DNA of 64,000 bases, taken from positions 124,001 through 188,000 of the forward strand of contig JAFRQQ010000009.1 in assembly GCA_017428525.1 (NCBI GenBank), read 5' to 3'. Below, piece after piece: positions 32,342 to 37,856 of this stretch. Origin of the DNA: Clostridia bacterium (GTDB taxonomy: Bacteria; Bacillota; Clostridia; Oscillospirales; Acutalibacteraceae). A program made the translations under genes and the position numbers. The first letter of the stretch is position 1; the number at the start of each line of letters is the position of its first letter. The notes under the pieces are model-generated. The model saw only the letters and a list, made by a program, of their open reading frames with translations. It was not told the DNA's origin and did no database searches.

Positions 32342-32385
32342 AAAAATCCTGCGGCTTCGTTGAAAGCTGCAGGATTTTTCTTTTA
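32342..32385. terminator. Bidirectional terminator between AIM24 and deacetylase genes
   Basis: An 11-base stem AAAAATCCTGC/GCAGGATTTTT with a 16-base loop gives T runs on both strands, so it can end both convergent genes. The left-most bases of the deacetylase gene overlap its edge. Confidence 0.9.
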
Positions 32386-33705
32386 CGTTGTTTCGTTTTT
32401 GATCGTTTCCGCGTCCAGATACTGCGTGCCGCTCTCCGGCGCCTTGCCGGTCTTCGCGGCAATCAGCTGCCGGCAGGTGACCAGCTGATAGCCCTGATCG
32501 AGCAGGGCGGGGATCATGCGTTCCACAGCGTCGGCGGTGGAAAGATAGATCTCATGCATCAGGATGATATCGCCGTCCGACACGTTATTCATCACTGCGT
32601 TGTAAATGTGATCGGCGTTGCGGTATTTCCAGTCCTGCGTGTCCACGGACCAGTAATACAGCGGCATGTTTTCCTTCGCGCATTCCTGCCGTATGAGCTC
32701 CGTTGTGTTGCCGCCGGGCGAGCGGAAGCTGGAGGGCCGCACGCCGGCCGTCTGATAAATCGCATCCGAGCAGTCGATGATATCCGCCTGCGTCACGCGC
32801 GAGCCCAGGTGATCGTGCCGCATGGTGTGATTGCCCAGCTCGCAGTGCAGCTCGACCTTGCGTTTGACGTTCTCCGGATGATCGAGCACGTTTTCACCGA
32901 TCATGAAGAAGGTCGCGGTCACGCCGTATTTTTCGAGAACGTCGAGAATCCGGTCGGACGCTTCATTATAACCGGGACCGTCGTCAAAGGTCAGCGCGAT
33001 CATGGGTTTATTCAGATCAATGCCGGTCAGATCGACGCCTTCCATGGCGAAATATGCTTCCGGTTCGCTCCACGCGCCGGCAACGGCGTTTTTGCCTTCG
33101 CCCGCAAGCGCGCGCACGCGGAAATAATACTGCTGATTATATTGCACGGGCGATACCGTAAACGCGTCGGTATCCGGCTGCACGGTCAGCGACTGCGCCT
33201 GGTCGAAATTCGCCTGCTCGCCGATCATATACTGCAGCTCATAGCTTGCCGCCTTCGGATTCGGCGTGAAGGTCACGCGCAATTGGTCCGTGCCGTCCAT
33301 CGCCTGCGTGATCGCGTCGAGCTTGCCCTGCATGGGCGGCGTCATGGCCTGCAGCACCGCGGGATGCTTCGTTTCATTGCTGCCTTTCTGCGCGACCACA
33401 CACACTTCATAAGGCGTCGCCTGCGTCAGATTCGTCAGCGTGCACGAGGTCTGCGCGCCGTCCAGCTGCAGCGCGTCGGAAAAGGAATCCTCGGCCTCGC
33501 TGCGCAGCAGGATTTTATAGCCTTCCGCGTGCCTGACCGGCTCCCAGGAAAGCGCAATGGAGGAATCGGTTACATCCCCGATTTTCACGCCGCCGATCTT
33601 CAGCCCCGAGCCGCCGCGCGCAATCGCGATGACAAGCAGCAGGAGGATCAGCACAACGCCGACGACCAGCACGCCGAGGCGCGTATTCTTTCTCGTTCGT
33701 TTCAT
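32383..33705 (-). CDS. Membrane-anchored FnIII-polysaccharide deacetylase
   Basis: A 440-residue envelope protein: cytoplasmic basic tail, one membrane helix (about residues 10-30), two fibronectin III-like modules (about 35-120 and 128-215) and a C-terminal NodB-type deacetylase. Catalytic marks are TFDDGPGYNE near 240, the metal histidines in GNHTMRHDHLG near 297, FRSPGGNT near 332 and ILMHE near 383. It probably removes acetyl groups from peptidoglycan or another surface glycan. The start is MKRTRKN at 33705 with AAAGGA upstream. It is the last gene of a four-gene minus-strand run. Confidence 0.9.
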   Translation of the reverse strand: MKRTRKNTRLGVLVVGVVLILLLLVIAIARGGSGLKIGGVKIGDVTDSSIALSWEPVRHAEGYKILLRSEAEDSFSDALQLDGAQTSCTLTNLTQATPYEVCVVAQKGSNETKHPAVLQAMTPPMQGKLDAITQAMDGTDQLRVTFTPNPKAASYELQYMIGEQANFDQAQSLTVQPDTDAFTVSPVQYNQQYYFRVRALAGEGKNAVAGAWSEPEAYFAMEGVDLTGIDLNKPMIALTFDDGPGYNEASDRILDVLEKYGVTATFFMIGENVLDHPENVKRKVELHCELGNHTMRHDHLGSRVTQADIIDCSDAIYQTAGVRPSSFRSPGGNTTELIRQECAKENMPLYYWSVDTQDWKYRNADHIYNAVMNNVSDGDIILMHEIYLSTADAVERMIPALLDQGYQLVTCRQLIAAKTGKAPESGTQYLDAETIKNETT

Positions 33706-33726
33706 ATGCAACATCCTTTAAACAAA

Positions 33727-34293
33727 TCATTCATCCGTGCCGTAAAGACCGATCTCCGCCGCGTGCACGCGCATGCCTTCGATGCAGATCGCAGCGACCT
33801 GCTGCAGCTCCATGCCGAGCAGCTCGCAGCCCTGCAGGATCAGCGCGCGATCGCATTTCGCGGCGAATTTCTTATCCTTGAATTTCTTCATGAAGCTCTT
33901 GACCTCAAGGTCGCGGATGCCGCGCGGGCGCATACGGGCGCAGGCCTGAATGATGCCGGTCAGCTCGTCCACGGTGAACAGGCTCTTTTCCATGGGCGTT
34001 TCCGGCTTGACGTCATTGAGAATGCCGTAGCCGTGGCTGAGAATCGCGCGCACATCCTCCGGCGCGACGCCGGCAGCGAGCAGCGGCGCTTCCGTATGCT
34101 GCAGGTGCTCCTCCGGATAGGCCTCATAATCATAGTCATGCAGCAGACCGATCGCCTGCCAGTATTCGACGGATTCGCCGAAGTGCTCCGCCATCGCGCC
34201 CATGGCATAGGAAACATTCAGCGCGTGAATCTTCAAATGCTCCTCAGTCACCGTATCGGCAATCAATGCCTGCGCTTTCTCCAATGTCAGCAT
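33727..34293 (-). CDS. HD-domain hydrolase
   Basis: A 188-residue HD-superfamily protein with the metal pair in IGLLHDYDYEAYPEEH near residue 50, preceded by a candidate first His in LKIHALNVSYAM near 22 and followed by ILSHGYG near 85. Such small HD proteins are phosphohydrolases or phosphodiesterases of unknown substrate. No targeting signal. It lies 16 bases after the GNAT-oxidoreductase fusion gene and 21 bases before the deacetylase gene, so it is co-transcribed. Confidence 0.85.
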   Translation of the reverse strand: MLTLEKAQALIADTVTEEHLKIHALNVSYAMGAMAEHFGESVEYWQAIGLLHDYDYEAYPEEHLQHTEAPLLAAGVAPEDVRAILSHGYGILNDVKPETPMEKSLFTVDELTGIIQACARMRPRGIRDLEVKSFMKKFKDKKFAAKCDRALILQGCELLGMELQQVAAICIEGMRVHAAEIGLYGTDE

Positions 34294-34309: not shown

Positions 34310-36133
34310 TTATTTCTTCTGATTCCATCTTTGTCTTAGTTTTTCATATGTTTCGGGCGGGATCTCGGGATTCCCCTTGGAATAGCTGGGAATGACGTGA
34401 TTCTCCGGATTCTTCGGATCGGTGCAGGTCGTATCGTTGCGCCACTTGTCGCGTTCTTCCTTGCTGCGCAGATCCGGGATCTCCTTGGGCACGCCGCCGT
34501 CCAGCACGGAATAATAGGCGAACATGCCGGGCAGGAACATATTCAGCGCTTCGTAAACGTCCACGATTTCCGCGTTGCGGTTGCCGCGCAGACGCTGCAC
34601 AAAATGAAACATCACATAGGTGTCGCTGCCGCCGTGACCTGCGGATTCCGAAAACGCGGTCAGCCCGTCGGCGGTATCCTCCGGCGCGGCCTTGCCCTCG
34701 TTGGAGCCTTCCTGCGCGTCAAGATTGGCATAGAGCGTGTTGACGCCGCCGGCAAGCGCGTCCTCGCGCGCGCTTTCCAGGCGCCCCTTGGAGCCGTAAA
34801 CCGTGTACCACACGGAATCCTTGGAGGGCCCCACGCCGTGCAGGCTCTTGAGGATCGCGCCGTTTTCGAGCGTCACGATTTCCAGCGCAAAGGGACCGGC
34901 TTTCGCGCCCATGCGCGCCATGCGGGTGTTGAATGGCGCCTCAATGCCGACGACCTTCACCGGCCGCAGACCGCAGATATGCACCAGCGGGCCGAGCGAA
35001 TGCGTGCAGTAATAAAACGCGCTCATCGTATTGCGCCAGTGCAGCGGATCGCAGCAGGACCAGCCCGGCCAGCCGTTTTCACAGTTGTGCATATATTCGC
35101 CCTCGCCGTATTCAAAGCTGCCCAGCGCGCCTTCACGGTAAAGACTGCGCATGGCCTTGGGCGCTGCCATAAAGCAATAGTTCTCGGCGTATGCATAAGT
35201 CATGCCGGTTGCTTCCACGGTTTCGATCAGCTCGACCGCTTCCTTCATCGTCTGCACGGGCAGCACCTCGGAGAGCACATGCTTGCCCGCGCGCATGGCG
35301 CGGATCGCGTAGGGCGCGTGCTCGTTCGCGAAGTTCGCAAGGCAGACCGCGTCCATATCATGCGCGAGAAATGCATCGAAATCTTTATAAAACGTCACGC
35401 CGCTGCAGTCAAAGGCGCTGCGGATTTCATCAAACCGCGCTTCATTGCGATCGCAGACGGCCACAAGCTCGGCGTCGTCAAAGGTCTTGCAATACTGCAT
35501 GAAGGTCTTGCCGCGCGCGCCGCCGAAGACGCCGAAGCGGATCTTGCGCGTCAGGCCCTTGCGCTTGATGGTTTTATACGGCGTCGCGTCTTCATAGACC
35601 ATCTGCACGCTGTCGATGCCGTAGTCCTCGAGCACGGCGTTCCAGCGGTTTTCCATATTCAGGTCATATTCGACCGGCAGGAAGCCGGCGGTCAGATAGG
35701 ATTTCACAGCGCCCTTGCGCCATTCATCCGTCGTCAGATAAATGTAGCGGCAGCCTGTGGCTTCCAGCTTTTTGCAGGCGACGGCGGTCAGGAAACGGCT
35801 GAGCCCGCGGCCGCGGAAATCGGTGCGGATAGCGACCATGTGGAATTCACCGATTTGCTCCGCCGGATGAAAGACCGCGGTGAAGGTGCCGATATGCTCG
35901 CCCTGATAATCCAGAAAGAAAACATCCCGCTGCAGATCGACGTCGTCGTGCTCGGTGATCGCGCTGTCAAACGCCGAGTTATCGGCGTCGTCGCCGATCA
36001 GTCCGTTTTTGCAGATCTCCACCCAGTCGGCTTTGTCCGCTTCGGTCTGATAATTTGAAAAAGCGTAGCCCGCGGGCAGCGGCGCGTCGTCGATCGGCGT
36101 GCCGGGGAACCAATACATTTTCAGCTGTGCCAT
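34310..36133 (-). CDS. GNAT acetyltransferase-Gfo/Idh/MocA oxidoreductase fusion
   Basis: A 607-residue two-domain protein. Residues 1-185 form a GNAT domain; the acetyl-CoA loop reads RTDFRGRGLSRFLTAVA near 103 and a TTDEWRKGAVKSYLTAGF segment near 135. From about 198 a Gfo/Idh/MocA dehydrogenase follows: IRFGVFGGARGKTF is a variant of the NAD(P) loop (GxGxxG replaced by GGARG), AVCDRN binds the cofactor end, and EVLPVQTM replaces the usual EKP catalytic motif. The reading frame is continuous, so the fusion is not an artefact of a lost stop. It probably acts on a sugar derivative. The substrate is unknown. Confidence 0.85.
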   Translation of the reverse strand: MAQLKMYWFPGTPIDDAPLPAGYAFSNYQTEADKADWVEICKNGLIGDDADNSAFDSAITEHDDVDLQRDVFFLDYQGEHIGTFTAVFHPAEQIGEFHMVAIRTDFRGRGLSRFLTAVACKKLEATGCRYIYLTTDEWRKGAVKSYLTAGFLPVEYDLNMENRWNAVLEDYGIDSVQMVYEDATPYKTIKRKGLTRKIRFGVFGGARGKTFMQYCKTFDDAELVAVCDRNEARFDEIRSAFDCSGVTFYKDFDAFLAHDMDAVCLANFANEHAPYAIRAMRAGKHVLSEVLPVQTMKEAVELIETVEATGMTYAYAENYCFMAAPKAMRSLYREGALGSFEYGEGEYMHNCENGWPGWSCCDPLHWRNTMSAFYYCTHSLGPLVHICGLRPVKVVGIEAPFNTRMARMGAKAGPFALEIVTLENGAILKSLHGVGPSKDSVWYTVYGSKGRLESAREDALAGGVNTLYANLDAQEGSNEGKAAPEDTADGLTAFSESAGHGGSDTYVMFHFVQRLRGNRNAEIVDVYEALNMFLPGMFAYYSVLDGGVPKEIPDLRSKEERDKWRNDTTCTDPKNPENHVIPSYSKGNPEIPPETYEKLRQRWNQKK

Positions 36134-36159: not shown

Positions 36160-37683
36160 TTATGATTTCATGACGACGTTGATCTCATTCGTCATATAAT
36201 TGAATGTGACTTTCACGACCGTGTTGTTATGCTGAATCGAAAGAATGCCCAGACTGCCGGTGCCGGAGAAGGGGAAGGGGTGCGCCGTGCTCACGCAGGC
36301 GGAGAGCGTGCCCCAGGTGGAAACGGCGAAATCGTAGTCGCCCGCATAGGGCATCACAAAGCTCAGACTGTAGTTGCCGTTGCCGGTATAATACATGCGC
36401 GTGATCTCGCTGTTGGAATCGTATCGCACCGCGCCGACATAAGGCTGGAAGCTGCCGTAGAGCACGACCTTCTCCGGAAATTGCACGCCGGTTTCCGGAT
36501 CGGATTCATTCTTTCCGCCGTAATCGAGCATGGAGGGATTCGCCAGCGTACGATACGCGTCATAGCCTTTTGCGAGCAGCGCGGCAACGGCGTCCTCCTG
36601 CGAAAAGCCGTCGGGGCAAGCGTCGGAGCGGTTGTTCATTTTATAGGTATGATCCTGACCGTCGCCGCCTTCGCCCAGACCCCGCATGAGCGGAAAGGCA
36701 AAGAAGCCGTCGGGATTGTTGATCGCCGTCCATTTGAACGTGTAATCCAGAAACGCGTCGCGCGCGGCCTGCGGCTGATCGGCAAACCAGGAGATCTGAT
36801 CGCCGCCCCACCACTGACTCCAGGCGAGCTCGTCATAGGAGAGGTGTTCACGCGCCCAGCGGTCGCGCCCGCCCCAGTTGTCATATTCATAGAGGAACGG
36901 CAGCGCGTCTTCATAAACGCCCTCGGGCGAAATGCCGCCGCCGGATTTGCCCTCGCGCACGAGCACCAGCTGCTCGCCGGGGCGGTCCAGGATCGGGAAA
37001 CGCGTGAGCGGCATCGCGTTGTAATCGAGCAGGCTTTTGCCGTTGACGACCAGCGAATGCGAATGCGCGTCAAAGATCACCTTGTGGCGCCGCGCGTGCG
37101 CTTTGCCGTAAGCCCGAAGCATGTCGAGCACTTTCGCAATTGCCTGATACCCGCGGTCATGGCCGGTATAAAGATGAATCTGCCCCATATGGAACGCTTC
37201 ATAGCCGCTGTCGATATAGCGCACGCCGCGGTAATAAAACCACATCTGCGTTTCGAGCTGCGAGATATCCGGCATATTGCTCCATGTGCCGGCCTCGGGC
37301 GGAAACACGCAGGCGTCAAAGCTGAAATTGCGACGCTCGGCAGGCAGCCCGAACGCCTCAAACACCCAGGCGGGCACCGGCACGGATTCGACATCCTCGC
37401 GATAGACCACTTCGAAAATGCAGGCCTGCAGGATGATTTCCGGATCGGCGGCGTGAATGCGATCGGCCGCGTTTTTCACCGTTTCATAATGCTGATCGTC
37501 CGGCATGGAGCCTTTCCAGATGCCCGCGGCTCGACCGAGGAATTTCAGTCCCGTCTTCAGTATCACGCGGATATCGTCGTCGAGCGTATCGCTCAGCGAG
37601 ATCCACTGCGCGCTCGCCGCGTGGGCAAGATAATATTCCAGCACTTTCCTCGGCATGGCGCCGTCAAAATAGCCTTCGCTCAT
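36160..37683 (-). CDS. Unrecognised 507-residue protein, possibly carbohydrate-active
   Basis: I do not recognise the family. The protein is soluble, without signal peptide or membrane helix, and rich in Trp, Tyr and Asp. The first 400 residues alternate helix and strand elements (VPAWVFEAFGLP, GQIHLYTGHDRGY, HKVIFDAHSHS, WGGRDRWARE), suggesting a glycosidase-like barrel. The last 100 residues look beta-rich (SLSFVMPYAGDYDFAVSTWG). It is the first gene of the run with the GNAT-Gfo/Idh fusion, HD hydrolase and glycan deacetylase, consistent with sugar metabolism. AAAGG precedes the ATG by about ten bases. Confidence 0.7.
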   Translation of the reverse strand: MSEGYFDGAMPRKVLEYYLAHAASAQWISLSDTLDDDIRVILKTGLKFLGRAAGIWKGSMPDDQHYETVKNAADRIHAADPEIILQACIFEVVYREDVESVPVPAWVFEAFGLPAERRNFSFDACVFPPEAGTWSNMPDISQLETQMWFYYRGVRYIDSGYEAFHMGQIHLYTGHDRGYQAIAKVLDMLRAYGKAHARRHKVIFDAHSHSLVVNGKSLLDYNAMPLTRFPILDRPGEQLVLVREGKSGGGISPEGVYEDALPFLYEYDNWGGRDRWAREHLSYDELAWSQWWGGDQISWFADQPQAARDAFLDYTFKWTAINNPDGFFAFPLMRGLGEGGDGQDHTYKMNNRSDACPDGFSQEDAVAALLAKGYDAYRTLANPSMLDYGGKNESDPETGVQFPEKVVLYGSFQPYVGAVRYDSNSEITRMYYTGNGNYSLSFVMPYAGDYDFAVSTWGTLSACVSTAHPFPFSGTGSLGILSIQHNNTVVKVTFNYMTNEINVVMKS

Positions 37684-37793: not shown

Positions 37794-37822
37794 TTGCGTC
37801 GGCATGCCGGATATAGTATAAT
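37794..37822 (+). promoter_or_regulatory. Promoter of the metallophosphoesterase gene
   Basis: TTGCGT (37794-37799), 17-base spacer, perfect TATAAT (37817-37822), then AAAGGAG before the ATG at 37857. Confidence 0.75.
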
Positions 37823-37856
37823 GAATTAAAAAATTACCCGTCAAAGGAGCGCAGCT

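Follow-up and report, generated by a model that had tools for sequence, protein, structure and literature searches.

A GNAT acetyltransferase fused to a GH109-like Gfo/Idh/MocA protein in Clostridia: a possible acetylate-then-cleave enzyme for amino-sugar glycosides

What is the function of a protein that joins an N-acetyltransferase and a sugar dehydrogenase-like domain on one chain? The question is raised by a gene in a 64,000-nucleotide stretch of a Clostridia bacterium genome (Acutalibacteraceae; assembly GCA_017428525.1, contig JAFRQQ010000009.1, positions 124,001 to 188,000), below called the window. The initial annotation suggested that the protein makes an acetamido sugar in two linked steps. 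We tentatively favour a different answer, although our judgement is almost evenly divided: a cytosolic bifunctional enzyme that breaks down imported amino-sugar glycosides by acetylating and then cleaving them. The gene and its domains have the following positions in the window.

34310..36133, minus strand: fused GNAT-Gfo/Idh/MocA (GH109-like) gene, 607 amino acids
35564..36133, minus strand: GNAT N-acetyltransferase domain, residues 1-190
34313..35548, minus strand: Gfo/Idh/MocA domain, GH109-like, residues 196-607

The gene is a single uninterrupted open reading frame (ORF) with an ATG start, and the initial annotation was right to link the two domains in one continuous frame, which lies on the minus strand. 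In the Pfam search, both domains scored above the cut-offs, Acetyltransf_1 (PF00583) at residues 67-151 (E 6.5e-10) and GFO_IDH_MocA (PF01408) at residues 198-314 (E 2.1e-14). Structure prediction, proposed earlier as a check, yielded confident AlphaFold2 (AF2) models of the complete fused protein (mean predicted local distance difference test score, pLDDT, 92.7; predicted template modelling score, pTM, 0.89) and of the GNAT domain alone (pLDDT 95.6). Both domains are under purifying selection, the nonsynonymous divergence (dN) being well below the synonymous one (dS) in five of five comparisons. The fusion is not a chance read-through.

The two best sequence matches of the Gfo domain in the PDB are GH109 enzymes, 2ixa (E 4.8e-14) and 6t2b (E 1.6e-12); the same two are best by profile, and the alignment takes in the C-terminal GHGG motif. 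Foldseek also places 6t2b first in the PDB (E 2.3e-22). For the GH109 enzyme AmGH109A, His404 has been proposed to act in oxidation and reduction at C3, Tyr226 at C2, and His259 as the glycosidic acid/base (PMC10755693). In the alignment, Tyr226, His259, and His404 correspond to Y347, H378, and H500 of the fused protein. The equivalence was obtained by counting along printed alignments on the assumption that His404 is the GHGG-loop histidine; the same count lands on a Tyr and a His of 6t2b for the other two positions, which serves as a check on the offset. These residues and two altered motifs are located as follows.

35093..35095, minus strand: Y347, aligned with Tyr226 of AmGH109A
35000..35002, minus strand: H378, aligned with His259 of AmGH109A
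34634..34636, minus strand: H500 in SAGHGGSD, aligned with His404 of AmGH109A (GGHGG loop)
35507..35524, minus strand: GGARGK dinucleotide loop, residues 204-209
35258..35269, minus strand: EVLP replacing EKP, residues 289-292

Both altered motifs, GGARGK and EVLP, are present as originally described. In the loop, G204, R207, and G208 are found in 84 of 84 fused proteins, and residue 290 is V, L, or T throughout the fused set. The EKP lysine is absent from the fused and close unfused rows and present in 22 of 25 controls, a set of more distantly related Gfo proteins encoded in the same loci. Y347, H378, and H500 occur together in all 84 fused and all 22 close unfused sequences (among the latter, as in the Gfo tree, L068:13 is counted as unfused though it is cut by a contig end; the window row of that tree was a gapped copy, slightly shifted). 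In a wider set, the three residues combined with the loss of the EKP lysine characterize 88/88 fused rows (87 distinct, the window protein being present twice) and 32/32 close unfused rows (31 distinct). The same combination is seen in three of the 25 controls, two of them in G350, where one is directly upstream of the GNAT gene and the other is 2.4 kb away. In addition, E317 and Y375, which we take to be the counterparts of E149 and Y225 in 2ixa, do not vary within the family and are each present in three of 25 controls. The suspicion that the chemistry of the Gfo domain may differ is thus supported, as the changed EKP motif accompanies GH109-type catalytic residues.

Several other assignments of the Gfo domain were considered. 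A classical Gfo/Idh/MocA dehydrogenase would be expected to carry the EKP lysine, replaced here by valine. A decayed dehydrogenase was set aside, since the loss of EKP coincides with a GH109 residue set that is invariant. The NAD+-dependent sulfoquinovosidases of GH188 (8qc*) resemble our domain in fold (VIA-align Z 34.5) and in the two histidines. However, GH188 keeps Lys107, at what we infer to be the EKP lysine position, and has Glu163 where GH109 has Tyr226 (PMC10755693), while the fused protein has V290 and Y347, and we rejected its membership in GH188. With GH109, the NAD+-dependent alpha-N-acetylgalactosaminidases, it shares the fold, the Rossmann domain, the equivalents of Tyr226, His259, and His404, and the lack of the EKP lysine (for GH109 itself, this is based solely on the alignments with 2ixa and 6t2b). 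Still, the identity in structure alignments is 19-22%, our protein is fused to a GNAT, and its N-terminus is not hydrophobic. Moreover, we call the domain GH109-like rather than GH109 because the C-terminal Pfam model of this family, Glyco_hydro_109_C (cut-off 27 bits), misses the cut-off for the fused protein. The same model matches the Gfo protein beside GNAT in three loci with split genes (L037, L043, and L177) at E from 2e-18 to 8e-21.

The acetyltransferase half has the R-G-x-G CoA loop and the tyrosine expected of a GNAT.

35696..35698, minus strand: Y146, the Tyr of the GNAT A...Y...GF motif

Y146, presumably at the position of the usual GNAT general acid, is kept in 91/91 fused GNATs, that is, those joined to Gfo or to GH28-like domains, and in 31/31 unfused ones. 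H98 is similarly conserved (90/91 and 31/31), as is R107 (90/91 and 28/31). Judging by these residues, the domain looks intact and active, and an outcome that would have spoken against the initial view, a GNAT catalytically dead in every homologue, was not seen. In the structure comparison, the domain came closest to mycothiol synthase MshD (Z 17.4), followed by a mycobacterial tandem GNAT (16.7) and VipF (16.2); the Clostridium acetobutylicum glucosamine N-acetyltransferase (5kf1 series) ranked lower (Z 13.3-13.8). The GNAT profile also matches the RmNag chain 4ZM6 (E 5.9e-5), but peptide and other acetyltransferases score equally well or better. The fold does not prove the acceptor.

The fusion is recurrent, with dozens of genomes of gut Clostridia carrying it. 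A scan of named records yielded 234 encoding stretches, of which 79 loci were kept; these carry 81 fused proteins longer than 540 amino acids, with two fused genes each in L057, L088, and L089. The records are mainly rumen and gut metagenome-assembled genomes of Oscillospiraceae/Clostridia. Separate GNATs and Gfos were found as well. Matches spanning both domains were found in 27 of 37 same-genus genomes, including G033, with an in-frame stop, and G034, ending at residue 543; stop-free two-domain matches were found in 20 of 300 family genomes, at most four candidates being scored per genome. At larger distances, we searched for the GNAT, and found it in 21 of 394 order genomes (E <= 1e-15) and in four of 398 phylum genomes (1e-12). 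These four genome counts include the genome of the window. Among 308 matching plasmid records, none had a match covering 80% of the query; the eight plasmid records listed match the Gfo part.

The genome itself (2.76 Mb, 43 contigs) encodes a second fused GNAT-Gfo copy on contig C5 (L002 / L029:8037-10112), 54% identical and with different neighbour genes, and an unfused Gfo relative on C12, 33% identical. In addition, contig C21 (L028:7730-9841) encodes a 703-residue protein in which an N-terminal GNAT (37% identical) is followed by a GH28-like beta-helix domain. Contig C6 (L005:1507-2766) has a Gfo protein that is more distant and lacks GNAT, yet also shows the GH109-type residue set.

GNAT and Gfo are paired in other arrangements, too. 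A single 631-residue frame at L181:5881-7776 has the reverse order, Gfo-GNAT, and in L174 and L175 the fusion partner of GNAT comes from a second Gfo subfamily, in which the same residues are kept. Separate genes form Gfo-GNAT-Gfo runs in L176 and L178, and in L162 Gfo genes are in a run with those for a solute-binding protein and GNAT; GNAT and Gfo genes are adjacent in L037, L043, L164, and L177. Among 26 GNATs not fused to Gfo, six have a Gfo within 3 kb; with a chance of roughly 4% each, the probability of this is about 5e-4 if independent loci and a density of 14 Gfo genes in 2.4 Mb are assumed, although the loci are not fully independent. The 26 include L038, four GH28-like fusions, and loci with short flanks; the L176-L178 runs, found because one match spanned both domains, are outside this count. 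The GH28-like fusions also come in both orders, GNAT-GH28-like in C21 and GH28-like-GNAT in three same-genus genomes (L167, L168, and L173). In the GNAT tree, these two kinds fall into separate supported clades (100/100 and 100/99), which suggests that they probably arose separately. The window row of that tree was a gapped copy, slightly shifted; in a second tree, built with a clean row, the two kinds were again apart. L038 and L071:5006, both cut by contig ends, were left out of the trees. At L180:5072-6601, a Gfo is preceded by an apparent GNAT remnant (48 matched residues), perhaps of a decaying fusion, and an unfused GNAT directly adjoins the frame L032:4546-6156, in which a carbon-nitrogen hydrolase is joined to a glycerophosphodiesterase domain.

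The neighbours of the family genes mostly, but not solely, point to breakdown. Directly downstream of 16 fused genes is a single recurring family, taken to be MFS_2/GPH sugar transporters on the basis of one member, and an epimerase-like family is directly upstream of 13. As the genomes are related, these are not independent events. At the same time, the counts are lower bounds, as genes were picked by length and recurrence, and some, including the fused genes of L054, L059, and L063, were displaced by antisense ORFs. Glycan-active neighbours include GH3 (named from its sequence start), GH27-type melibiase, GH28, GH92, GH127, GH130, and heparinase II/III-like proteins; others are SBP_bac_1, xylose isomerase-like TIM barrels, further Gfo genes, phosphoesterases, and ADP-ribosylglycohydrolase. 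No substrate could be deduced from these genes, and to name a galactosaminide or heparan would be no more than guessing. One further cluster, L176:794-9298, encodes in direct succession on one strand a DegT aminotransferase, a heparinase II/III-like protein, two amidohydrolases, Gfo, GNAT, and Gfo; it appears to be an amino-sugar cluster, for either synthesis or breakdown.

A precedent for such a fusion comes from fungi. RmNag is a GH3 beta-N-acetylglucosaminidase with a C-terminal glucosamine N-acetyltransferase (PDB 4ZM6), and it cleaves the glucosamine (GlcN) dimer, (GlcN)2, only in the presence of acetyl-CoA: the GNAT acetylates, and the glycosidase then cuts (PMC4680927). Like our protein, it has GNAT on one chain with a glycosidase, here a putative one, and, as we propose for our protein, it needs acetylation before it can cleave a free-amine substrate. 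Unlike it, RmNag belongs to GH3, uses no NAD, and carries two tandem C-terminal GNATs, as opposed to one N-terminal GNAT and a GH109-like Gfo. According to the same article, bacterial glucosamine N-acetyltransferases serve to recover ends that lack the acetyl group, ahead of cleavage by a glycosidase (PMC4680927). The C. acetobutylicum enzyme has the GNAT fold in common with our domain; it is, however, a separate protein of about 320 residues with low sequence similarity (E 6e-4). In humans, the breakdown of heparan sulfate involves HGSNAT and, as the second protein of the pair, alpha-N-acetylglucosaminidase; with two proteins, one of them a membrane enzyme, and unrelated folds, this is an analogy only. 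The acetylation of terminal glucosamine by HGSNAT is essential for this lysosomal process (PMC11357348).

The logic of RmNag, the recurrence of the fusion, the conservation of both residue sets, and the import and breakdown neighbours lead us to propose the acetylate-then-cleave enzyme. In the first step, the GNAT domain would use acetyl-CoA to N-acetylate the free amino group of a glycoside, yielding an acetamido sugar. In the second, as the conserved catalytic residues suggest, the Gfo domain, with NAD+ as a recycled cofactor, would oxidize the sugar, at C3 in the GH109 scheme; Y347 would take the C2 proton, the aglycone would leave and water add, with H378 and H500 as acid/base, and the ring would be reduced back, the net reaction being hydrolysis. 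The fusion could hand the product of the GNAT on to the Gfo domain or restrict cutting to acetylated units. We also consider it possible, but would not lean towards it, that these proteins are acetyl-CoA-gated NAD+-dependent amino-glycosidases that form a new glycosidase family next to GH109, with GNAT first acetylating free-amine glycosides, and that in uncultured gut Clostridia two glycosidase folds, unrelated to each other, separately acquired the same GNAT line, on either side. Acetylation followed by cleavage would then be a general bacterial strategy against glycans protected by free amines. GNAT-glycosidase fusions and NAD-dependent glycosidases of the Gfo fold are each already known, and what appears new is their union. 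In the titles and abstract starts listed by searches of an open-access library, neither a fusion of GNAT with an NAD-dependent glycosidase-like domain nor one GNAT line with two glycosidase folds in both orders was evident.

A number of observations weigh against the acetylate-then-cleave enzyme. Taken singly, the catalytic residues are also found in controls (H378 in 23/25, H500 in 15/25, and Y347 in 9/25), and the GH109-like case therefore rests on their combination. Glyco_hydro_109_C has no match to the fused protein at E <= 1 and only weak ones, below the cut-off, in four of seven relatives (best E 0.0027); likewise, no match to this model came from the Gfo neighbours examined in L162 and L164. 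In Foldseek, GH109 (2.3e-22) is hardly ahead of the second hit, the uncharacterised oxidoreductase 4h3v (2.8e-22), and the VIA-align scores of GH188, GH109 (Z 34.0), levoglucosan dehydrogenase (33.7), and another oxidoreductase (34.9) are nearly equal; as GH188, GH109, and several dehydrogenases are thus tied at Z 33-35, the fold alone is not decisive. Close Gfo genes without GNAT exist, and hence GNAT is not essential to Gfo; conversely, for 20 of the 26 GNATs outside Gfo fusions there is no Gfo within 3 kb. GH28 enzymes are not known to act on amino sugars, and the neighbours of the family genes suggest varied glycans and no single substrate. DegT-family aminotransferases make amino sugars in biosynthesis; in L035, L044, L176, and L178, loci that contain no fused gene, a family gene has a DegT gene at a distance of 1.5-5 kb. 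Finally, in G017 (L035/L186) a close unfused Gfo is next to a polysaccharide-type cluster, directly after the genes for a UDP-sugar dehydrogenase, DegT, glycosyltransferase-like proteins, and an apparent left-handed-helix acetyltransferase (L186:2541-13459). UDP-sugar dehydrogenases are found in L035 and in G417 (L122/L160/L128), the latter 939 bp from a fused gene and on the opposite strand.

Three alternatives weigh most: that cleavage precedes acetylation, that TIM-barrel partners complete a 3-keto pathway, and that the protein serves acetamido-sugar synthesis. The order of the two steps is not fixed by fusion or linkage, and the Gfo or GH28-like domain could cleave first, with GNAT acetylating the released amino sugar or amine as a trap or for detoxification. 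The GNAT folds nearby, MshD and glucosamine N-acetyltransferase, also permit free-sugar acceptors, and RmNag itself prefers free GlcN (115.2 U/mg, the values for GlcN to (GlcN)5 going down to 5.4; PMC4680927). Nevertheless, RmNag, the fused precedent, acetylates before cleaving (GlcN)2 (PMC4680927), and, as GH109 acts on N-acetylated sugars, cleavage first would mean that a free-amine glycoside is accepted; we consider this order unlikely. A somewhat more doubtful scheme is that Gfo only oxidizes the acetylated glycoside at C3 and neighbouring TIM-barrel isomerase- or lyase-like enzymes finish the cleavage, as in the breakdown of C-glycosides or levoglucosan. It agrees with the closeness in fold of DgpA and levoglucosan dehydrogenase, and with the AP_endonuc_2 TIM barrels and further Gfo genes beside or near the fused gene in L055, L057, L058, L067, L069, L070, and L074. 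Against it, the GH109 residue set is invariant, and no TIM barrel is found among the annotated genes of the window or in the loci where the epimerase and MFS_2 genes adjoin the fused gene.

Synthesis, the view of the initial annotation, would have Gfo make a 3-keto sugar, a separate aminotransferase aminate it, and GNAT acetylate the product to an acetamido sugar. The best NCBIfam match, UDP-N-acetylglucosamine 3-dehydrogenase, is in line with this, although at 44.8 bits it is far below the cut-off of 450; so are the appearance of WlbA in the structure lists, the DegT genes, and the G017 cluster. On the other hand, that cluster seems to have a Gfo-type dehydrogenase of its own (L186:10294-11373, named from its N-terminus only), a DegT search with one query (E <= 1e-10) had no match in any locus with a fused gene, and the missing EKP lysine and the transporter and glycosidase neighbours also argue against synthesis, which we regard as less likely still. 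What stands of the initial view is a fusion of two enzymes with two steps involving an acetamido sugar; a sugar-type dehydrogenase acting in synthesis is less supported, given the GH109-type residues and the import and breakdown neighbours. The GNAT could also acetylate a protein, perhaps the Gfo domain itself, or be a pseudo-enzyme tag, as has been debated for O-GlcNAcase, a GH84 enzyme with a GNAT-like domain, which shows that the GNAT of a glycosidase need not acetylate a sugar (PMC4680927). The conserved CoA loop and tyrosine, purifying selection, and the pairing of the same GNAT line with an unrelated glycosidase fold make this very improbable.

In the window, the fused gene is part of a minus-strand gene run.

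33727..34293, minus strand: HD-domain protein, 188 amino acids, downstream (HD E 2.6e-4, just below the Pfam cut-off)
32383..33714, minus strand: Fn3-Fn3-polysaccharide deacetylase, 443 amino acids, hydrophobic N-terminus (PF01522, E 8.7e-28)
36160..37683, minus strand: 507-amino-acid protein gene, 26 bp upstream of the fused gene, no Pfam family above the cut-off
32342..32379, no strand assigned: terminator-like hairpin closing the run, A-run before and T-run after (pattern counts not above shuffles)
37815..37844, minus strand: promoter-like site upstream of the 507-amino-acid gene, 10/12 matches (5 found against 2.8 +/- 1.5 expected)

Both the terminator-like and the promoter-like patterns are no commoner here than by chance. 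The 507-residue protein has a weak X25 match at its C-terminus. The operon with a glycan deacetylase and an HD hydrolase, as initially annotated, holds insofar as both genes are downstream on the same strand, with 12-16 bp between successive genes, but the run is kept only in a sister genome: among the loci examined, relatives of the deacetylase, HD, and 507-residue genes were found only in the near-identical L048/L009. A conserved gene run was therefore rejected beyond this pair. If the deacetylase and HD partners do matter, the fused enzyme might, as a speculation, aid in recycling the cell's own de-N-acetylated glycan.

Sugars with free amines, such as those of de-N-acetylated peptidoglycan, chitosan, N-desulfated heparan, and galactosaminans, resist glycosidases that need the N-acetyl group. 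If the proposed function is correct, a single-chain enzyme that re-acetylates and cuts would explain the use of free-amine sugars by gut and rumen bacteria. It would also add to the few known NAD-dependent glycosidases and provide a tool for releasing or labelling amino sugars. Moreover, it offers a testable reason for the recurrence of seemingly decayed EKP motifs among Gfo proteins: some of these proteins may be glycosidases.

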